Of a stretch of DNA of 64,000 nucleotides, positions 43,188-51,893 are shown piece by piece. The DNA is from Roseicyclus marinus (GTDB taxonomy: Bacteria; Pseudomonadota; Alphaproteobacteria; Rhodobacterales; Rhodobacteraceae), in the NCBI RefSeq assembly GCF_036322625.1, contig NZ_AP027266.1, positions 2,297,001-2,361,000 of the forward strand, given 5' to 3'. Within the stretch, counting starts at the first letter, position 1, and each line of letters opens with the position of its first letter. The position numbers and the translations under genes were made by a program. The notes under the pieces are model-generated. The model saw only the letters and a program-made list of their open reading frames with translations. It ran no database searches and was not told the DNA's origin.

Positions 43188-44564
43188 ATGGGCTATCACA
43201 TCGACCTCAACGCCACGCGCTACAGCTTTCCCTCGCTCAAGGGGCTGCTCGCCCGCGCCTCCCCCGAGCGCAGCGGCGATGCGCTGGCCGGTCTTGCCGC
43301 CGATGGCCCGCTCGAACGGATCGCGGCCCAGCACTGCCTTGCCGATGTGCCCCTGTCCGATTTCCTGACCGATGTGCTGGAGGTGGAGGGCGATGGCGTC
43401 ACGGCCCTCATCATGGCTGCGCACGACGCACAGGCCTTTGGCCCCGTCGCATCGCTGACCGTGGGCGGTTTCCGCGACTGGCTCCTGGACCCTGCGACCA
43501 CCGGCGCGACGCTTGCGGCGCTTGCCTCCGGCCTGACCCCCGAAATGGTCGCCGCCACCTCCAAGATCATGCGCGCCCAGGACCTGATCGCGGTGGCCGC
43601 CAAGGTGCAGGTCGTCACGCGCTTTCGCTCCACCATCGGCCTGCGCGGCCGCCTCTCGACCCGCAACCAGCCCAACCACCCGACCGACGACAGCCGGGGC
43701 ATCGCTTTGTCGGCGCTTGACGGGCTTTTGATGGGCGCGGGCGATGCGGTGATCGGGGTGAACCCCGCCACCGACAGCCTGCCCGATTACATCCGCATCT
43801 GCGAGGTGCTGGACGCGATCCGCAGCCAATTGGACATCCCCACGCAGACCTGCTGCCTTGGCCATGTCACCACGGCGCTGGCCGCGATGGAGGCAGGCGC
43901 GCCCGTTGACCTCGTCTTCCAATCCGTCGCAGGCTCGGACAAGGCCAACGCAGGCTTCGGCGTCACCCTCGCCCTGCTGGATGAAGCCGCCGAGGCCGTG
44001 GCCGCGCTCAACCGTGCGCCCCAAGGCGCGAACCTGATGTATTTCGAAACCGGTCAGGGCGCGGCAGTGTCAGCCGATGCCCATCACGGCATGGACCAGC
44101 AGACGATGGAGGCGCGCGCCTATGCCGTGGCCCGCCGCTACCGCCCGCTTCTGGTCAACACGGTCGTGGGCTTCATCGGGCCGGAATACCTTGCCGATGG
44201 CAAGCAGATCACCCGCGCAGGGCTCGAGGATCATTTCTGCGGCAAGCTTCTGGGCCTGCCGATGGGGGTCGATGTCTGCTACACCAATCACGCCTGGGCC
44301 GATCAGGACGATATGGATATCCTCCTGACCGCCCTGGCCAATGCGGGCGTCAATTTCGTCATCACCGTGCCCGGCGGCGACGACATCATGCTCAATTACC
44401 AAAGCCTGTCCTTCCATGACGCGGCCTATATCCGCGACACGCTGGGCCGCCCGCCCGCCCCCGAATTCGCCGCATGGATGGCCCGGCACGGGATCGGCAC
44501 GCCCGATGCCGATCTGCCCTCGCTCGATACAGCCCTCGCGCGGCTGCGCCTGCCCGCCGCATGA
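43188..44564 (+). CDS. eutB: Ethanolamine ammonia-lyase, large subunit
   Basis: 458 residues from ATG 43188. With EutC it forms the adenosylcobalamin-dependent enzyme that converts ethanolamine to acetaldehyde and ammonia. Recognisable blocks are NHPTDDSRGIALSALDGLLMGAGDAVIGVNPATDS, TQTCCLGHVTTALAAMEAGAPVDLVFQSVAGSDKAN, MYFETGQGAAVSADAHHGMDQQTMEARAYA and VNTVVGFIGPEYL, covering the TIM barrel with the substrate-binding Glu of FETGQG. No microcompartment genes are nearby, as expected for the simple EutBC type. Stop overlaps the eutC start. Confidence 0.95.
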   Translation: MGYHIDLNATRYSFPSLKGLLARASPERSGDALAGLAADGPLERIAAQHCLADVPLSDFLTDVLEVEGDGVTALIMAAHDAQAFGPVASLTVGGFRDWLLDPATTGATLAALASGLTPEMVAATSKIMRAQDLIAVAAKVQVVTRFRSTIGLRGRLSTRNQPNHPTDDSRGIALSALDGLLMGAGDAVIGVNPATDSLPDYIRICEVLDAIRSQLDIPTQTCCLGHVTTALAAMEAGAPVDLVFQSVAGSDKANAGFGVTLALLDEAAEAVAALNRAPQGANLMYFETGQGAAVSADAHHGMDQQTMEARAYAVARRYRPLLVNTVVGFIGPEYLADGKQITRAGLEDHFCGKLLGLPMGVDVCYTNHAWADQDDMDILLTALANAGVNFVITVPGGDDIMLNYQSLSFHDAAYIRDTLGRPPAPEFAAWMARHGIGTPDADLPSLDTALARLRLPAA

Positions 44565-45307
44565 GTGCCAAGCCCCCCATCCCCCGCGACGAGATCCGCG
44601 CCCTGACCGAGGCGCGGCTGACCTTCGGCCCCCGGGGTCGCTCTGTCGCCACGCCCGAGGCGCTGGCCTTTGCGCTTGACCATGCGCGCGCCCGCGCGGC
44701 GGTGGCGGCGGAGCTGGACCTGCCCGCCCTAATCGCGGCGCTGGACCGGCTGGGGATGGCGCATCGCACCGTAACCAGCGCCGCAGGCGACAGGGCCACC
44801 TTCATCCGCCGCCCCGACCTGGGCCGCCGCCTGCCAGACAGCGCGGCCGAGGGGCTGACGGATATCGGCCCCTGCGACGTGGCCCTCGTTCTGGGCGACG
44901 GTCTGTCGGCCACGGCGGTGGCGCTGAACGGCGTGGCCTTTCTCTCCGCGCTGGCCGATCGTCTGACGGAAATGGGCCTCAGCCTCTCGCCCGTCATCCT
45001 TGCCCGGCAGGCGCGGGTGGCGCTCGGCGACGGGATCGCGCGCGCCATGGGGGCGCGAACCGTGGTCATGGCGCTTGGCGAAAGACCGGGGCTATCTGCG
45101 GCAGACAGCCTTGGGGCCTATATCACCCACCTGCCCCGCCCTGACACGCAAGACAGCGCGCGCAACTGCATCTCGAACATCCGCGCCGCGGGTCTTCCCG
45201 TCGATGACGCCGCCGATCAGGCCGCGCGCCTGATTGCCGCGATGCGCGCCACGGGCCAAAGCGGCGTCACCCTCAGCCGCGCCATGGCCGCAGGCAGCCT
45301 GACCTAG
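44561..45307 (+). CDS. eutC: Ethanolamine ammonia-lyase, small subunit
   Basis: 248 residues, ATGA-coupled to eutB. It carries the B12-binding small-subunit pattern: LTEARLTFGPRGRSVATPEALAFALDHARARAAV, IGPCDVALVLGDGLSATAV, QARVALGDGIARAMGARTVVMALGERPGL and the end-region SARNCISNIRAAGL. Its TAG stop (45305-45307) is the first three bases of the MITE-like element at 45305-45410, so the original stop may have been replaced by insertion. Confidence 0.94.
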   Translation: MSAKPPIPRDEIRALTEARLTFGPRGRSVATPEALAFALDHARARAAVAAELDLPALIAALDRLGMAHRTVTSAAGDRATFIRRPDLGRRLPDSAAEGLTDIGPCDVALVLGDGLSATAVALNGVAFLSALADRLTEMGLSLSPVILARQARVALGDGIARAMGARTVVMALGERPGLSAADSLGAYITHLPRPDTQDSARNCISNIRAAGLPVDDAADQAARLIAAMRATGQSGVTLSRAMAAGSLT

Positions 45308-45410
45308 AGCATGTCGCGCAAAAGTGGGAACCGGTTTTGCGCTCCCCGGACATGCGACATCAGCAGGTCAGAGAGCGGCGCGTGACTGCGAATGAACGCG
45401 ACGCGCTCTA
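45305..45410 (+). mobile_element. MITE-like 106-bp element, copy A
   Basis: Bounded by TAGAGC and GCTCTA. The ends are imperfect inverted repeats: TAGAGCATGTCGCG on the left against TAGAGCGCGTCGCG read from the right. An internal hairpin pairs GCGCAAAA (45316-45323) with TTTTGCGC (45335-45342). It encodes no protein. Its left TAG is the eutC stop and its right end supplies the TAG of the minus-strand TSUP gene. Copy B lies inverted at 51347-51452 with about 98 of 106 positions identical. TA at both outer edges would fit a TA target duplication. Confidence 0.8.
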
Positions 45411-46157
45411 ACCCGTCAGCCCCTGCCAGATCAGCCTGAGCGAGATCAGGACAAGGATCGCATCGAGCGCCCGCTTGAACCCGTGATCGCTGATCCGGTT
45501 CAGAACGAACCGCCCCATCAGCGTCCCCGCCAGCCCCGCCGCGATCAGCGCCACGATCACCATCGCCCAAGGGCCAAAGGCAAAGCCCAAAAGCCCGAAG
45601 ATCACCACCTTCAACCCGTGCTGCACCGTCATCAGCGCCGCATGGGTGGCGACATGATCGTGACGCGGCAGCGTCAGCGACTTGGTGTAATTCGCCACGA
45701 AAAGCCCCGTCGCCCCAAAGAACATGGTCAGAAAGCTCGACACGCCCCCCGTCAGCCACGGCCAGCGCGACAACCAGCGCGGCGGCTTGGCAAAGACGGA
45801 ATAGATGACAAAGGCCCCGACCCCGATCTGCACCACGTTGGGCGGCAATTCCACCACCACCGCGCCGCCCATCCCCGCACCCACCAGCGACCCGATCAGG
45901 AAACCGGGGATCACGGCGGCCCAACTGATGTTGCGCCAGAGCATGATGGCCCGCCCCCCGTTCGAGCCAAGCTGCACCACCCCGTGAACCGGGATCAGCG
46001 CCGCAGGCGGCACAAGGCTCGCCATGATCGCCAGAAGCAGCCCGCCCCCCCCGATGCCCATCGCCACCGTGATCAGCGAGGCGATGAAGCTCGAAACCAT
46101 GAGAACCCAGAACGACAGCTGCGACAGCCCCTCGGGCAACACGAAAAGAAGGTCCAT
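45408..46157 (-). CDS. TSUP (TauE/SafE) family membrane permease
   Basis: 249 residues with about seven or eight membrane segments. The first repeat holds SFIASLITVAMGIGGGGLLLAIMASLVPPAALIPVHGVVQLGSNGGRA, the conserved TSUP pattern (GGGG, PVHG, NGGRA). The second repeat includes SFLTMFFGATGLFVANYTKSL and THAALMTVQHGLKVVIFGLLGFA. Family members export sulfite, sulfoacetate or other sulfur/organic anions. Its stop codon is the end of MITE-like copy A. It is divergent from the glycosyltransferase operon. Confidence 0.87.
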   Translation of the reverse strand: MDLLFVLPEGLSQLSFWVLMVSSFIASLITVAMGIGGGGLLLAIMASLVPPAALIPVHGVVQLGSNGGRAIMLWRNISWAAVIPGFLIGSLVGAGMGGAVVVELPPNVVQIGVGAFVIYSVFAKPPRWLSRWPWLTGGVSSFLTMFFGATGLFVANYTKSLTLPRHDHVATHAALMTVQHGLKVVIFGLLGFAFGPWAMVIVALIAAGLAGTLMGRFVLNRISDHGFKRALDAILVLISLRLIWQGLTG

Positions 46158-46210
46158 CGCTCAGGCGTCTCCGGGGAAGCGGCTGCAGCGCCGCGCTGGC
46201 TGCATACTGT

Positions 46211-46218
46211 GGTATACC
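46211..46218. promoter_or_regulatory. GGTATACC palindrome in the TSUP/glycosyltransferase divergent gap
   Basis: The 8-bp palindrome lies 54 bases upstream of the TSUP start and about 200 before the glycosyltransferase start, in context TGTGGTATACCGATG. The same core in CGGTATACCG occurs at 332-341. It may be an operator; evidence is only symmetry and position. The rest of the 258-base gap shows no clear gene or promoter. Confidence 0.3.
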
Positions 46219-46415
46219 GATGCGAAGTCAAGTCCCCGCAATGCCCCCGCGCCCACGCCCACGCCCAAAGGCCCCCCAAACTTTGGACGAAAGGTAAAAT
46301 CCTTGCCTTGATGGACGAAACGAGGGACAAGAAACCAACCAAAGAGCGCGACCAACCCGCGCCCATAGAGCAGTCACAAGTGCCGTCTCAACGCGCCGTC
46401 AAGAAGGGTCATTCC

Positions 46416-47225
46416 GTGCAACTCGACCGCCGCCCCGTCGCTTCCCTGTGGATCGGGGAAAAGCTGCAATATCTCAACCAGCTCTGCCTCGTGTCGCATC
46501 TGCGCCACGGCCATCCCGTGACGCTCTATTGCACCGATACCGTGCAGAACGTCCCCGAGGGCATCGTGGTCCGCCCCGCCTCCGAGATCATGGATATCCC
46601 CATGGATATCGTGGCCGAAACCTCCGCCAGCTTCCTGTCCAATGTCTTCCGCTACAAGATGATCCGCGCGACCGGCGCGATCTGGATCGATTGCGACGCC
46701 TTCTGCCACCGCCCCTTTCCCGATGACCAGGACTGGATCTTTGCCGGCCACGGCATGCGCGGGGCGCTCAATTGCGGTGTCGTGGGCCTGCCGCGCGACT
46801 GCGAGTTGATGGACCGCCTGCTCGATTATTACGACAACCTGCCCGACGCGCCGCCCTGGTGGAACAAGCAGCAGCGCAAGAAGCTGGAAAAACAAAAGGA
46901 CGCGCCCCATGCCGTCCGCATCTACCGCACTGAACGCACCGCCTTCGGCCCGCAGGCCTTCACCTGGTTCGCGCAGCAAACGGGCGATTTCGACCGCGCC
47001 ATGACGCCCGATGTGCTCTACCCCGTGCCCTTCCAGCTCAACGACATCTTCTACGACCCCCATGGCCGCGTCGAAGGCTGGTTCACCGACGCGACCCTCT
47101 CCGTCCATCTCTACACCAACGGCACGAAACCATGGTGGCGGCGCAACGTGCCGCTCGAAAACTCCTATGCCTGGCGCATGTGCCAGGAGGTCGGCATCGA
47201 TCCTGCACAGGCGTTGGAAGACTGA
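46416..47225 (+). CDS. GT-A-fold glycosyltransferase (sugar-binding DXD type, GT32-like)
   Basis: 269 residues from GTG 46416, preceded by GAAGGG at 46403-46408 with a seven-base spacer; an ATG at 46311 would add 35 low-complexity charged residues. It begins with a nucleotide-sugar-type fold (SLWIGEKLQYLNQLCLVSHLRHGHPVTLYCTD) and carries AIWIDCDAFCHRPF, a DXD-type motif for metal and sugar nucleotide. Resembles glycosyltransferases that act on capsule or LPS. First gene of a five-gene operon. Specificity unknown. Confidence 0.72.
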   Translation: MQLDRRPVASLWIGEKLQYLNQLCLVSHLRHGHPVTLYCTDTVQNVPEGIVVRPASEIMDIPMDIVAETSASFLSNVFRYKMIRATGAIWIDCDAFCHRPFPDDQDWIFAGHGMRGALNCGVVGLPRDCELMDRLLDYYDNLPDAPPWWNKQQRKKLEKQKDAPHAVRIYRTERTAFGPQAFTWFAQQTGDFDRAMTPDVLYPVPFQLNDIFYDPHGRVEGWFTDATLSVHLYTNGTKPWWRRNVPLENSYAWRMCQEVGIDPAQALED

Positions 47226-47254
47226 CACGACAAGGCGCAAAGGAGGCAGTCTTG

Positions 47255-48379
47255 ATGCCCACCCCCGAGCCGCATCTCGATTTCGCCCCCGACCGGCCGA
47301 TCGACTGGACACCCGTGGTCCATCGCGACGTGGTGCTGGTGCCCTGGGGCGAAAACCCGCCCGGCGGCGCGCGGCGCGCGGCGGGCCTGTTCGATGCCGA
47401 AAACCGCTTCCTGCCCGAGGGGCATTGCTGGCGCTACCCGTTCGAGCCGATCACCGTCGAACCGGTCCCGCCCGTGACCGAGGGGCGGATCGAACGGCTG
47501 TCGGGGCGCTGGCTTTTCGGCGGGCTTTTCTACGGGCATTTCGGCCATTTCCTTGTCGAGACGACCGCCCGCCTCTGGGCCACGGGGCTCTTCGACGATC
47601 TCGACGGGATGGTCTTCTACCCCAAACGGCTTCTCACCCATGAACGGCGCATGTTCCGCGAAACCATGCCCTTCTTCGAGCTCTGCGGCCTTGCCACGCT
47701 GGACTTGCGGGTGCCCCAGAAACCCGTCGTCATCGACGAATTGCTGACCCCGCCCCCCGGCTTCGGCATGGGCGAGATGATGGCGGGCCGCCCCGAATAC
47801 CGCGACTGGATGCGCGCGAACATGGGCCGCGCCATCGCCCCGAACGGCCCCGAGGCGATCTATGTCTCCCGCGCGCGCCTGCCCTCCAAACGCGGCTCCA
47901 TCTTGCTCGAGGATCGTCTCGAGGCGCTTCTCGAGGCCGAGGGCTACACGATCATCCATCCGCAGGAAGACCCGCTCGAACGCCAGATCGAGATCTGGAA
48001 AGCCGCGCGCCGCGTCATCGCGCTCGACGGATCGGCGCTGCATTTCGGCGCCATGCTCCTGCCCGAAGGGGCCGAGGTGGCGATCCTCAATCGCGGCCCC
48101 TCCCAGAACATCGAGGATTACATCCTCCAGTTCCGCGCCTTCGCCGGGATCGACCCTTTGCGCATCGACGCGCTCACCGGCTACTTCCACCCCGCAGGCC
48201 AGCGCGTCGTCAAGCGCGAGGTCTTTGCCACCCTCGATTTCGCAGCCGTCGGCGCGGCCCTGCGCGCGGGCGGCTTCATCCGCTCCGAAACCCCGTGGCA
48301 GAACCCCACCCGCGACGAGATCCTTGCCGCCGCCGCCCATGAGGCGCGGGACGGCACCCTCGACTGGACCGAGATCTGA
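47255..48379 (+). CDS. GT61-family glycosyltransferase
   Basis: 374 residues from ATG 47255, with an excellent AAGGAGG at 47240-47246. The GT61 (formerly DUF563) pattern is visible: LFYGHFGHFLVETTARLW in the N-terminal half, IYVSRARLPSKRGSILLEDRLEALLEAEGYTIIHPQEDPLERQIEIWKAARRVIALDGSALHFGAMLLPEGAEVAIL in the C-terminal half. The family is found in bacterial capsule/LPS loci as well as plant xylan synthesis. It follows the GT-A gene by 29 bases and probably shares its transcript. Donor and acceptor are unknown. Confidence 0.85.
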   Translation: MPTPEPHLDFAPDRPIDWTPVVHRDVVLVPWGENPPGGARRAAGLFDAENRFLPEGHCWRYPFEPITVEPVPPVTEGRIERLSGRWLFGGLFYGHFGHFLVETTARLWATGLFDDLDGMVFYPKRLLTHERRMFRETMPFFELCGLATLDLRVPQKPVVIDELLTPPPGFGMGEMMAGRPEYRDWMRANMGRAIAPNGPEAIYVSRARLPSKRGSILLEDRLEALLEAEGYTIIHPQEDPLERQIEIWKAARRVIALDGSALHFGAMLLPEGAEVAILNRGPSQNIEDYILQFRAFAGIDPLRIDALTGYFHPAGQRVVKREVFATLDFAAVGAALRAGGFIRSETPWQNPTRDEILAAAAHEARDGTLDWTEI

Positions 48380-48389
48380 GGACCCAGCC

Positions 48390-49250
48390 ATGCCCAAGGA
48401 ATTCGCCTGCGCGCTCACCCATGTCCGGCACGAGGATGTCTTTCTCGAGAAATGGATCGCCCATTACGGCGCGATCGTCGGGCGCGAAAACCTTCATGTC
48501 GTGATCGACGGCGATGATTGGGAACCGACAATCGACCTCACCGGCATCCGGACCGAGGTGCTGCTCGACGCGCCCCGCCGCCGCATCCAGAACGACCGTT
48601 TCATCGCCAAGCAGATGTCGGGCCGCGCCAACACGCTGCGCAAACGCTACGAACATGTCATTCGCGGCGATTGCGACGAATACGTGGTGATCGACCCCGA
48701 GGCCGGTCTCGACTGGCCCGAAGCCTTGGCCGAACTGGGCGAGGATGGCTATGTCTTCGCGCTCGGTGTCGACGTGGTGCAAGGGCCCGATGAAACCGCC
48801 TCCGTCGATCCGACCCAACCGATCCTTGGCCAAAGGCGGCAGGGGTTCGTCGCCGATGGCTATTCCAAACCCTTCGTCATCTCACGTTGGGCCAATTGGG
48901 CGGGCGGCGCGCACAGGCTCTTGAACCGCAACGTGCGGATGAGCGCGCATTTCACGCTCTTTCACATGGCGCTCTGCGACCGGACCATCGCCAAGGCGCG
49001 GATGGAGGCGCGGGGCGGCACCGCCCAGCACCCGAGCTTCGTCGACCACCAGACCCTGCGCCTCAACGCCATCGCCGATGCAGGCCCCGCCCCCCTCGAT
49101 TATGCCGAGGCGCGCGCCATAGGCCTGTCGCAATTCCCGGTCGAGGCCGATGGCACCCCCGCCACCCGCCCGCGCAAATCCACCGATCCCCGCGCGACCG
49201 ACAAGGGCCTGCCGGTCATCATCCCCGACCGGTTCTTCGGGCTGGTCTGA
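48390..49250 (+). CDS. Glycosyltransferase family 2-like protein (PF13704 type), first of three
   Basis: 286 residues, 10 bases after the GT61 gene. It starts MPKEFACALTHVRHEDVFLEKWIAHYGAIVGRENLHVVIDGDDW, the opening strand and helix of this GT2-like group, and has RGDCDEYVVIDPEAG as the DXD-equivalent. The C-terminal part has VISRWANWAGGAHRLLN and many His residues. Probably adds a sugar to a surface glycan. Family assignment is by motif; specificity unknown. Confidence 0.72.
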   Translation: MPKEFACALTHVRHEDVFLEKWIAHYGAIVGRENLHVVIDGDDWEPTIDLTGIRTEVLLDAPRRRIQNDRFIAKQMSGRANTLRKRYEHVIRGDCDEYVVIDPEAGLDWPEALAELGEDGYVFALGVDVVQGPDETASVDPTQPILGQRRQGFVADGYSKPFVISRWANWAGGAHRLLNRNVRMSAHFTLFHMALCDRTIAKARMEARGGTAQHPSFVDHQTLRLNAIADAGPAPLDYAEARAIGLSQFPVEADGTPATRPRKSTDPRATDKGLPVIIPDRFFGLV

Positions 49251-49252
49251 CC

Positions 49253-50134
49253 ATGACCCTGCCCCCCCTCACCGTTGCGACCATCGCGCGCGAACCCCTG
49301 CCCGTGCTCGACCGCTTCCTGCGCTGGCATCTGGCGCAGGGGGCCGCGCGGATCATCCTCTTTCTCGACGACCCGGACGACCCCGCGCAGCACCATTTGA
49401 CCGGCGATCCAAGGGTCGAAATCCGTCTCTGCACCCCTGCCTTCTGGTCCGCCCTTGGGCTTGAGCCCGACGCCCGCTTCACCCGCCGCCAACGCGCGGT
49501 GATGACCCTCGCCTACCGCGACGTGGCAGAGGGCTGGGTGATGATCCTCGACGCGGATGAGCTGATGTGGATGCCGGGCCGCACCCTGCCCGAGGCGCTG
49601 GCGACCCTGCCCGCCGAAACCCTGTCGCTGCGTGTGGCCACCGCTGAACAAGTGACACTGGCCGATGGCACAGGCGCTTTCCGCCTGCCCATCCCGCGCG
49701 CCGCGGTGAACGGGATCTACGGCGCGGATGCCGATCTGTTCCGCCCCCGCTTCGGCCTTGTCGGCCATCCCGAGGGCAAATCGATCCACCGCGCGGCGCT
49801 TCCCGGCCTGCGGCTGAAACTCCACTGGGCCGAAACCGAAACCGGCGAAACCCTCCCCGGCGCACTCTGGGGCGCGGCGGAAAACGCCTATCTCCTCCAT
49901 TACTTCGCCCCCGGCTACGCCCCGTGGCGGGCCAAGATGGATTGGCGCGCGGGCGCGCATGGCTTTGCGGGACCGCTCAAGGACCGTCTTGCCGCCATCG
50001 CCGCCCTGCCCGACCCCGAACCGGGCTACCGCGCACTCTACGACCGCCTCCACCACCTGACCGAGGCGGAGGCCACGGCGCTTGCCGCCGCAGGCGGGCT
50101 CCTGCGCACGGCCCCACCTCTGCCCGGCGCCTGA
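49253..50134 (+). CDS. Glycosyltransferase family 2-like protein, second of three
   Basis: 293 residues, starting two bases after the previous stop. The N-terminus LTVATIAREPLPVLDRFLRWHLAQGAARIILFLDDPDD and the motif WVMILDADELMWM (DAD with flanking Glu) match the same GT2-like group as its neighbours. SIHRAALPGLRLKLHWAE and NAYLLHYFAPGY contain His that typically follow the acceptor half. It may be a diverged paralogue of the flanking genes. Specificity unknown. Confidence 0.72.
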   Translation: MTLPPLTVATIAREPLPVLDRFLRWHLAQGAARIILFLDDPDDPAQHHLTGDPRVEIRLCTPAFWSALGLEPDARFTRRQRAVMTLAYRDVAEGWVMILDADELMWMPGRTLPEALATLPAETLSLRVATAEQVTLADGTGAFRLPIPRAAVNGIYGADADLFRPRFGLVGHPEGKSIHRAALPGLRLKLHWAETETGETLPGALWGAAENAYLLHYFAPGYAPWRAKMDWRAGAHGFAGPLKDRLAAIAALPDPEPGYRALYDRLHHLTEAEATALAAAGGLLRTAPPLPGA

Positions 50135-50139
50135 AACCG

Positions 50140-51330
50140 ATGGCCCACGCCCACGCCACGATCCTCTCGATGATGAAGGACGAAGGCCCCCGCCTTCTGG
50201 AATGGCTCGCCTATCACCGGCTGATCGGTTTCGATGCGGTCTGGGTCTATACCAACGACTGCCGCGACGGCACCGACGCGATGCTCGACCGGCTCGCGTC
50301 CATGGGCCTGTGCCGACACCGCCCGAACCCCGTGCCGCCGGGCAAGAAACCCCAACCCCATGCCCTGACGCTGGCCGAGAAAAACCACGCCCTGCTCGAT
50401 ACCGACTGGCTCCTGCCCATCGACGCCGACGAATTCCTGCACGTCAGGACAGGCGACGGCACGCTCACAGCCCTCCTCGCCGCCTGCCCCACGGGGACCC
50501 AGGGCATCGCCGTCAACTGGCGCATGATGGGCTCGAACAAGATCGTGGCATGGTCGCCCGACCCGGTCCTGCCGCAATTCACCCGTGGCGCGCCCACGGA
50601 TTTCCGACGCGGCTGGGGCGTCAAGACGCTCTTCCAACCCTATCCGCATCTGAAACTCGGCATCCACCGCCCTGGCGTGAAAGGGGCCGCGCAACACCCC
50701 GACCGGCTCGACACGCTCCTCGACCGCCACTGGGTCAACGGATCGGGCCTGCGCCTGCCCCCCGGTTTCATGGCGGATGGCTGGCGCGGATCGGCCGCGA
50801 CCCACGGCTACGACCTGGCCGAGATCGCCCATTTCGCCGTCCAGAGCCGCGAGGCCTATCTGTTGCGGGGCGACCGGGGCAACGTGAACCTCAAGCAAGG
50901 CAAATACGACGCGACCTATTTCGCCGTCTTCGACCGGAACGAGGTGGCTCTGCCGGACCTGTCCGCATGGTCGGGCAGGATCGCCGCGCTGGTGGAGGAT
51001 TGGTTGACCGACACGACGCTCCGCCGCCTCCACGACCAAAGCCGCGACTGGCACCGCACCCGGCTGGACGAGTTGCGCGCCACCCCCGGCTTTGCCGCAC
51101 AGATGGCGGATCTTGCCCGCGCCGCCGATACACCCATTGCGGCGCTCGATGAGCTGCTCTTCCCCCAACCCCTCGCGCCCGAGGGCAAGGCGCTGGTCGC
51201 CCGGATGCGCGCGGCAGGCATCCCCGACCGCGACATCGCCCGCCAGATCGCCGCCCGCGTGGCCGAGCTGGAGGCCGCGCGCGACGCCCGCGACCGCGCC
51301 GAACTGCGCGCCATGGGTGTGCTCTCCTAG
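50140..51330 (+). CDS. Glycosyltransferase family 2-like protein, third of three
   Basis: 396 residues from ATG 50140, five bases after the preceding stop. It gives the clearest PF13704 pattern: ATILSMMKDEGPRLLEWLAYHRLIGFDAVWVYTNDCRDGTDAMLDRL followed by LLPIDADEFLHV. It is longer than its two neighbours, with an extra C-terminal region from about residue 290 rich in Arg, Ala and charged residues (LEAARDARDRAELRAMG), which looks helical or coiled. Last gene of the operon; its own TAG stop lies 16 bases before MITE-like copy B. Confidence 0.78.
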   Translation: MAHAHATILSMMKDEGPRLLEWLAYHRLIGFDAVWVYTNDCRDGTDAMLDRLASMGLCRHRPNPVPPGKKPQPHALTLAEKNHALLDTDWLLPIDADEFLHVRTGDGTLTALLAACPTGTQGIAVNWRMMGSNKIVAWSPDPVLPQFTRGAPTDFRRGWGVKTLFQPYPHLKLGIHRPGVKGAAQHPDRLDTLLDRHWVNGSGLRLPPGFMADGWRGSAATHGYDLAEIAHFAVQSREAYLLRGDRGNVNLKQGKYDATYFAVFDRNEVALPDLSAWSGRIAALVEDWLTDTTLRRLHDQSRDWHRTRLDELRATPGFAAQMADLARAADTPIAALDELLFPQPLAPEGKALVARMRAAGIPDRDIARQIAARVAELEAARDARDRAELRAMGVLS

Positions 51331-51346
51331 ACGGAAATAACGGTCC

Positions 51347-51452
51347 TAGAGCGCATCGCGTTCATTCGCATTCACGCGCCGCTCTCTAACCCTTTGATTT
51401 CGCATGTCCGAGGAGCGCAAAACCGGTTCCCACTTTTGCGCGACATGCTCTA
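51347..51452 (-). mobile_element. MITE-like 106-bp element, copy B (inverted)
   Basis: Reverse complement of copy A at 45305-45410 with eight differences by my reading, same length and same TAGAGC/GCTCTA ends. The internal GCGCAAAA/TTTTGCGC hairpin is conserved. Its outer end (51450-51452) provides the TAG stop of the minus-strand DUF1178 gene. Copies A and B bracket a 6.1-kb segment with TSUP and the glycosyltransferase operon. Confidence 0.8.
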
Positions 51453-51893
51453 ATTCGTCTTGTCGGGCGGCAGGATCGGCAGGGGGGCGATGGGAATGCC
51501 CTCCTCGATCAGGGCGCGCGCCTCTTCGGGCTTGGCCTCGCCATGGATGGGCCGTGCATCGGCCTCCCCCAGATGCATCGCCCGCGCCTCGGCCGCGAAC
51601 CGCCCGCCCACATAGGTCGAGTTTTTCGCCAGATGCTCGCGCAGGGCGCGCAGCATCTGCTCGGCGGGATGGGCGGGTTCCGACAGGGGCCGGGCGGGTG
51701 CCGGGGCGGCGACGGGTTCGGGCGCATCCACCCCCGACACACGCGGGGCCATCAACGCCTTGGTCACCTCCGTCCCGCCACAGATCGCACAAGACACAAG
51801 CCCCTTTTCGGCCAACGCATCATAGGCGGCGGCCGATTGGAACCAGCTTTCAAAGCTGTGATCTTGCGAACATTTCAGCGCGTAGCGGATCAT
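51450..51893 (-). CDS. DUF1178 family protein
   Basis: 147 residues. It starts MIRYALKCSQDHSFESWFQSAAAYDALAEKGLVSCAICGGTEVTKALMAPRV, the DUF1178 pattern with Cys at CSQDH and a CAIC pair that resemble a small zinc ribbon. A Pro/Ala linker (residues about 55-75) separates it from the C-terminal YVGGRFAAEARAMHLGEADARPIHGEAKPEEARALIEEGIPIAPLP. Function unknown; widespread in alpha- and betaproteobacteria. It follows the Nudix gene by 43 bases on the same strand. Its stop codon belongs to MITE-like copy B. Confidence 0.85.
   Translation of the reverse strand: MIRYALKCSQDHSFESWFQSAAAYDALAEKGLVSCAICGGTEVTKALMAPRVSGVDAPEPVAAPAPARPLSEPAHPAEQMLRALREHLAKNSTYVGGRFAAEARAMHLGEADARPIHGEAKPEEARALIEEGIPIAPLPILPPDKTN

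Follow-up and report, generated by a model that had tools for sequence, protein, structure and literature searches.

The two 106-bp sequences A and B in the window, which is the whole stretch of 64,000 nucleotides that was analyzed, are probably copies of a mobile repeat that is palindromic and non-autonomous and belongs to the alphaproteobacterial CIR/RIME/Bru-RS kind; its insertion at TA, mostly in a YTAR context, would rebuild stop codons. The relevant features are as follows; the gene names are putative and were taken from an earlier note on this DNA.

44561..45307, + strand: putative eutC
45305..45307, + strand: eutC stop, coinciding with the left edge of A; EutC differs from relatives at its C-terminus
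45305..45410, + strand: element A, palindromic repeat of 106 bp with two arms, bounded by TA on both sides
45309..45355, + strand: arm 1 of A, a hairpin with the core AAAAGTGGGAACCGGTTTT (structure of model R1, covariation)
45370..45409, + strand: arm 2 of A, a second palindrome that reaches the right edge (model R1, covariation)
45408..45410, - strand: TSUP stop, at the right edge of A; C-terminal position as in the relatives G002, G006 and G007, where the stop is TGA
45408..46157, - strand: putative TSUP-family gene
51347..51452, - strand: element B, 106 bp, inverted copy of A
51450..51452, - strand: DUF1178 stop, rebuilt at the right edge of B
51450..51893, - strand: putative DUF1178 gene

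Copies of the element

A and B were aligned without gaps across 106 bp at 92% identity (about eight differences) and in opposite orientation, and their ends are TAGAGC...GCTCTA, which confirms the inverted pair described in the earlier note. When up to 3 mismatches were allowed, the core of 27 bp was found at only two places in the whole window, A and B, and at none in 100 shuffles. The glycosyltransferase gene to the left of B ends 16 bp short of it. The genome of 3.55 Mb (G000) contained 50 modules in 40 loci, two of which are A and B. Thus, the element is a MITE-like repeat with many copies, as had been proposed, and is not confined to two sites. None of the 40 loci was inside a called gene, and the element is thus extragenic; the neighboring genes, whose ends were called with a simple codon-usage caller trained on the congener G002, were convergent at 31 loci, tandem at 8 and divergent at 1. 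The full-length copies have TA termini, with an altered edge in several, and the partial copies are without edges. In addition, arm 1 was found elsewhere in the genome as solitary copies and in tandem arrays with a unit of 58 bp.

Across Alphaproteobacteria, the element was identified in 22 of 289 genomes (G000 included) and 18 of 219 genera at an E value of 1e-5. Named records with the element belong to Rhodobacterales, Sphingomonadales, Microvirga and Insolitispirillum; the phage sequences searched gave no match.

Element-free sites and insertion target

In the collinear congener G002, the element is missing from the sites of both A and B, and TA occurs just once where B lies in G000. Because both sites are empty in this congener, A and B are insertions, and the TSUP/glycosyltransferase segment was not mobilized by them. 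The segment is indeed bracketed by A and B, as had been pointed out, but without consequence, as it occurs in the same order and free of elements in G002. A composite unit that moved these genes and ended in A and B, to which the inverted orientation and the spacing of 5.9 kb might have pointed, is thus refuted.

Eighteen loci were mapped to the portion of G002 that was read, where the element was missing at 12, present at 5 and rearranged at 1. At three of the 12 element-free sites (B, 3089135 and 3519660), TA flanks the element on both sides in G000 but occurs once in G002. G002 likewise has one TA at 2123057 and 207707, where the insertion is at TA but one edge has been lost. The other seven, including A, have no clear TA at the point in G002, and 1884217 among them is ambiguous. 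For A, insertion into TA is an inference only, as the TSUP stop was TGA in all three relatives read. The earlier proposal of insertion into TA thus gained support from TA at both edges, from empty sites in a relative and from the duplicated TA at B and two other sites. The base before the left TA was C or T at 20 of 22 edges, and that after the right TA was A or G at 21 of 25. As judged from these sequences, the target is probably YTAR-like, with TA duplicated on insertion (cleanly at three sites). YTAR is scarce in this GC-rich group, as 1.57 Mb of congener sequence contained 1,290 such sites. Of the noncoding YTAR sites in convergent junctions, approximately 41% are stop codons.

Stop codons at the element edges

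The stops of eutC, TSUP and DUF1178 coincide in their coordinates with element edges, as had been noticed. The accompanying claim that insertion replaced the native stops fails for DUF1178 and possibly holds for eutC. In all 10 congeners read, the stop of DUF1178 has the same position (TAG in 4, TAA in 2 and TGA in 4), and in none of them was the element found within 60 bases 3' of this stop, an outcome that the note had named as refuting. The element went into the TA of a stop that was already present, and its first G remade TAG. Similar to DUF1178, the C-termini were kept at 3519660 and 3089135. Since the C-terminus of EutC differs from those of relatives, the element may really have provided a new stop there.

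A stop of TAG or TAA exactly at the edge was found at 28 of the 40 loci, namely at 23 of the 31 convergent and 5 of the 8 tandem loci but not at the divergent one; this strict rule excludes 2616672, at which a partial match ends on TGA. Moreover, 31 of the 70 gene ends pointing at an element stop exactly at its edge, and the overrun into the element never exceeded 6 bp. The same rule gave 14 of 19 in G002, 7 of 9 in G010 and 4 of 11 in G022, which belongs to another genus and shows a weaker bias. Of 76 further copies that had both flanks called and came from genomes other than G002 and G010, 40 had an edge stop. In a Novosphingobium metagenome-assembled genome (MAG), 0 of 7 copies with both flanks had an edge stop, and the bias is thus absent. 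Against the strictest null, the 23 of 31 compare with an expected 50% (P = 0.005), so that an excess remains. The YTAR target and the confinement to convergent 3' ends thus explain most, but not all, of the stop bias. Long-term retention is doubtful as its sole cause, given that edge stops are seen in 7 of the 12 copies that G002 lacks (8 of 12 if 207707, with its decayed edge, is included).

In the mechanism that we propose, the repeat would insert at TA, in most cases within YTAR, and duplicate this TA. With both ends reading GAGC after TA, TA plus G would give TAG on either strand. Landing in the TA of a native TAA or TAG stop would keep the C-terminus of the protein; alternatively, where the stops of two convergent genes overlap in a single TA, landing in this TA would keep both C-termini. 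Selection presumably acts against copies that insert upstream of genes. This selection, the scarcity of YTAR and the stop-rich convergent junctions together would leave most copies at stops between convergent genes. Because the element lands on TA, starts with G at both ends and rebuilds the stop, landing in a stop codon does little or no harm, which suggests a low-cost route by which repeats spread through dense, GC-rich genomes. That the ends and target choice are themselves adapted to stop codons, such that this class-wide repeat favors the TA of native stops beyond YTAR chance and its symmetrical, G-starting ends restore TAG from either side, is a tentative and rather improbable extension; if true, stop codons would be a harmless landing site.

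A minority chance is given to the alternative that the element is a bidirectional 3'-end hairpin, which ends transcripts or protects mRNA and is retained by selection between convergent genes, with the insertion mechanism being secondary. The convergent position of 31 of 40 loci, compared with 139 of 704 noncoding YTAR sites, is in line with it, and so is the stop bias in excess of the strictest null. The fold predicted for the element is stable on both strands (z of -2.5 and -2.9), and covariation across the class, in an alignment that had been fitted to model R1, points to two separate arms and a linker, with 28 of 30 pairs changed on both sides; folded as a single sequence, A differs from this two-arm model and pairs its two ends. 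However, the 12 of 18 mapped loci that are empty in the congener do without the element there, inspection of the sequence found no T run 3' of the arms at A or B, and the scarcity of G-U pairs (29 of 922 cells of the covariation alignment, one fixed pair left out) suits a palindrome at the DNA level at least as well as RNA. The arms of the mobile repeat may nevertheless double as 3'-end hairpins in RNA.

The transposase would act in trans. An IS630/Tc1-type MITE, moved at any TA by an IS630-family transposase as the earlier note had suggested, would account for the TA duplicated at three sites, and its size is close to that of RUP, which a review links to IS630-Spn1. This origin is unlikely: no match to the IS630-type profile DDE_3 (PF13358) was found in five of the six genomes searched (G000, G002, G003, G010 and G022), and TAGAGC is absent from the locus of the single match in G004. 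Moreover, the YTAR-like preference observed is not expected of an enzyme that needs only TA. Palindromic arms, tandem arm arrays and extragenic sites could also fit a REP-like element mobilized by a transposase of the Y1 (RAYT) type. This is highly improbable and largely refuted, as Y1_Tnp (PF01797) was found in 0 of 4 element-carrying genomes while the control search was positive in 5 of 14 genomes; nor is TA duplication expected of such elements. Searches for IS630, DUF4096, DDE_Tnp_1 and Y1 transposases as partner yielded, among the loci examined, none with element-like ends. The IS with matching terminal repeats that the note had looked to was likewise not found in G000 as an autonomous copy: its 75 places resembling the terminal inverted repeat (1 mismatch allowed) formed 16 inward pairs less than 5 kb apart, all of which, at 82-150 bp, were the elements themselves. 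An IS in G011 was rejected as partner, its ends TAGGCTCAGGAC not matching, and so was the extra sequence of approximately 2.7 kb at the 770115 site of G002, which holds other genes and has no TAGAGC/TAAAGC ends. For the mobile repeat, an IS427/IS711-like (IS5/IS427-type) enzyme fits better than IS630 and would be our best guess. IS711 of Brucella is reported to have the YTAR target and TA duplication seen for the element, but is 842 bp long with its own ORFs. G000 gave no match to DUF4096 (IS427-type), and no IS with the ends of the repeat was found.

Relation to known repeats

The architecture of arms, linker and TA ends places the element among the CIR/RIME/Bru-RS repeats, to which the rebuilding of stops adds a useful mechanistic detail. 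A literature search by title and abstract opening found no account of alphaproteobacterial repeats that insert into stop codons. The Caulobacter CcrM-associated intergenic repeats (CIR; Chen and Shapiro, 2003) of Alphaproteobacteria are described as approximately 110 bp long and strictly intergenic, with two long inverted repeats, a linker and TA termini (PMC2229807, PMC10969869). The element resembles them in size, two arms plus linker, TA ends, extragenic location and class. However, GANTC, the CcrM site that names the family, was found in no more than 3 of the 50 modules of G000, which places the element outside CIR sensu stricto and rejects this site as a conserved function in this clade; all 4 inspected copies of family f107 have GANTC in arm 2. 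Furthermore, the table of a review of small bacterial repeats gives a question mark for the target site duplication of CIR and no terminal inverted repeat, whereas TA is duplicated at three sites here and the TAGAGC ends form an imperfect inverted repeat. The same review sees partial MITE likeness in CIR and calls for more information on their mobility, on which the occupied and empty sites in two Roseicyclus species now bear through TA duplication and a YTAR-like target.

Similar to the element, ERIC, Correia/NEMIS and RUP are described as small and palindromic with TA termini, and A, when folded by itself, likewise has its ends paired; the covariation here, however, supports two arms and a linker, as described for CIR. 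QMITE2 of Coxiella burnetii is reported to lie mainly in 3' untranslated regions and, in one case, to shift the end of a gene (enhC). According to that description it lengthens the protein, whereas the native stop is rebuilt here.

The Bru-RS of Brucella, whose association with IS711 has been reported, are close in size (103 bp reported for Bru-RS1, 106 bp here). Bru-RS1 and Bru-RS2 were compared only via RF02600 (Rfam, Brucella sRNA CI27), probably a Bru-RS/CIR copy, which aligns end to end with A across two arms and linker at 26.8 bits, below the gathering score of 59.8 (E values of 3e-4 for 231 bases and 0.011 for 7.2 kb). The edge stops also caution that 3' gene ends in Alphaproteobacteria, and perhaps the annotated small RNA RF02600, can be repeat sequence. 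RIME1, the Rhizobium-specific intergenic mosaic element said to go back to Osteras in 1995, is reportedly 108 bp long with two palindromes. The likeness is indirect and lies in the mosaic arm arrays found here and in 11 Rhizobium plasmid records that match all 106 bases at 73-74%.

Elements A and B, their neighbors and other copies in R. marinus

The features compared were as follows.
44561-45307, plus strand: eutC
45305-45410, plus strand: element A
45408-46157, minus strand: TSUP gene
46416-51330, plus strand: five consecutive genes, glycosyltransferase-like according to the earlier note
51347-51452, minus strand: element B
51450-51893, minus strand: DUF1178 gene

Elements A and B aligned without gaps over 106 bp in opposite orientations with 92% identity, as expected of the inverted pair proposed previously, and both had the termini TAGAGC and GCTCTA. 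The proposed coincidence of three gene ends with their edges was also borne out by sequence. The pair was not alone, as a search of the genome found 50 matches that formed 40 loci. Of these matches, 28 spanned at least 95 bases and the remainder were mostly arm 1 or partial. Tandem arm-1 repeats with a unit of 58 bp were found at eight loci. The element is real, mobile and ordinary in kind; the new details are its stop-rebuilding insertion and the TA evidence. In no fewer than 9 of 12 congeners, the matches to the first of the five genes and to DUF1178 shared a contig and lay within ~8 kb of each other. Among the matches listed, those to TSUP and eutC were adjacent only in the collinear congener G002.

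The description of the alphaproteobacterial repeat CIR in parts of PMC2229807 (about 110 bp, two arms and a linker, TA termini, intergenic, TSD given as "?") fits this element. However, GANTC, which defines CIR proper, was present in just 3 of the 50 modules. The Brucella small RNA RF02600 aligned with the element end to end, but scored under the RF02600 gathering score.

Empty sites, TA duplication and stop codons

G002, for which 1.57 Mb of roughly 3.6 Mb was compared, was collinear across the region and lacked the element at both A and B. Both flanks were found in this part for 18 of the 40 loci, of which 12 were without the element, 5 were with it and 1 was rearranged. At site B, G002 has GGCC-TA-GTTGG and R. 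marinus has GTCC-[TAGAGC..GCTCTA]-ATTCG. The comparisons at 3089135 and 3519660 were as clean as that at B. These three sites thus demonstrate the TA duplication suggested earlier. Two further sites, 2123057 and 207707, have the single TA in G002 at the insertion point, but one edge of the R. marinus copy is gone. At the remaining 7 element-free sites, A included, no clear TA was seen in G002; the right flank of 548624 had diverged and the flanks of 2462112 were just 77% identical.

The earlier note held that insertion had replaced native stops. This does not apply to DUF1178, whose C-terminus, DK[TAI]N, and stop position were unchanged in 10 congeners (G006 and G007 are outside this count), with the stop being TAG in 4, TAA in 2 and TGA in 4; no element was found in the 60 bases after these stops. 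At 3519660, the congener has CCCTAACC, in which a single TA is common to two convergent genes; the element lies within the shared TA and the C-termini of both proteins are unchanged. At 3089135, the stop changed from TAA to TAG. At A, TSUP also kept its C-terminus, but its stop is TGA in the three relatives compared (G002, G006 and G007; 9 more had a TSUP match). Only eutC, among the three genes at the A and B edges, has a C-terminus that differs from that of its relatives. A is a less clear case than B.

Three other loci also varied between the two species. At 2862388-2862548, R. marinus has one more tandem arm-1 unit, where G002 (C11:346784-346889) has a single full element, so arrays of arms expand or contract where an element is already present. 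Another site (1816754-1816857; C20:81047-81152 in G002) is occupied in both species with the element in opposite orientations, through either inversion in place or two insertions; an altered left edge, TG for TA, is common to both copies. At 770115, R. marinus has an arm-1 remnant and G002 has instead ~2.7 kb with four called genes (C5:20765-23446), one of which presumably resembles a phage tail-collar protein gene.

Frequency of edge stops and the YTAR target

With gene ends taken from a codon-usage gene caller and an edge stop defined as TAG or TAA exactly at the element edge, edge stops were found at 28 of the 40 R. marinus loci, and at both edges of three (1420283, A and 3519660). Convergent, tandem and divergent settings accounted for 31, 8 and 1 loci, respectively. 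Of the 70 gene ends that point at elements, 31 were edge stops, and the deepest run into an element was at most 6 bp. Edge stops were also found in 14 of 19 copies in the compared part of G002 (11 of 14 without five loci shared with R. marinus), 7 of 9 in G010 (9 of its 12 matches examined) and 4 of 11 in G022 from another genus (11 of 12 examined). The named records contained at least 88 distinct full-length copies, 8 of them from G002 and G010; both flanks were called in 76 of the other 80, and 40 of these 76 had an edge stop. None of the 7 copies in this set from a Novosphingobium MAG had one. Of 17 plasmid hits, 7 had an annotated feature under the match, 8 had none and 2 had no annotation. 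Independent annotation of 5 of the 7 placed a gene end exactly at the edge in 4, and the fifth gene read 17 bp into the match.

C or T preceded the TA at 20 of 22 edges in R. marinus and 18 of 22 in other genomes, and A or G followed it at 21 of 25 and 20 of 22, respectively, which indicates a preference for YTAR. In noncoding sequence of G002 with its elements masked, stop codons accounted for 9% of TA and 15.5% of YTAR sites; their share of YTAR in convergent junctions was 41%, or 50% with flanks of at least 60% GC. Convergent edge stops (23/31) exceeded both the 41% (P 2e-4) and 50% (P 0.005) nulls, and tandem ones (5/8) exceeded a null of 14.5% (P 0.002). Convergent junctions contained 139 of the 704 YTAR sites, compared with 31 of the 40 element loci; thus, the placement of the element is biased mainly towards convergent 3' ends. 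Within these, YTAR accounts for much of the stop bias and leaves a remainder.

Structure, distribution and candidate transposases

A covariance model built from 24 copies matched 22 of 289 alphaproteobacterial genomes (R. marinus included) from 18 genera, under strict filters and with no more than 13 candidates from each genome scored. Most of the 30 matches listed shared the order TA-arm 1-linker-arm 2-TA with varying stems, but several weak ones had either no well-defined arm 2 or no TA edges. Changes on both sides were found in 28 of 30 pairs, and the covariation score was 0.60 vs. 0.15 for shuffles; as the alignment of 36 matches was fitted to the model and some matches overlapped on opposite strands, this result is tilted in favor of the modeled structure. 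When A was folded singly, its two ends paired, so the two-arm form rests on comparison. In the same alignment, stem changes were nearly all from Watson-Crick to Watson-Crick, with G-U in 29 of 922 cells outside one fixed pair, a pattern that would fit a palindrome at the DNA level (cruciform, template switching) better than an RNA. Among the matches listed, an exact 27-base arm-1 core was found in records of Rhodobacterales, Sphingomonadales, Microvirga and Insolitispirillum, from several alphaproteobacterial orders, while stems and arm 2 varied. Transfer between lineages, or a role of the core as a protein-binding site, may account for this.

The suggested IS630/Tc1 origin was not supported, as the DDE_3 profile had no match in R. 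marinus and four other carriers and one in the genome G004. Y1_Tnp had no match in 4 carriers, DUF4096 had none in R. marinus and two in G002, and the one weak DDE_Tnp_1 match in R. marinus was without matching ends nearby. Nor was the IS with matching terminal repeats found: R. marinus had no pair of element-type ends 150 bp-5 kb apart (at most 1 mismatch over 14 bases). IS711 is a member of the IS427 group. Our best guess is that the mover would be an IS427/IS711-type enzyme, because IS711, according to parts of PMC2266754 and PMC3163539, produces TA duplications at YTAR targets and occurs in association with the repeat Bru-RS. The repeat search gave no match in the congener G011, in which a DUF4096 transposase (contig C5) lies between inverted ends starting TAGGCTCAGGAC (16/20 bases alike).
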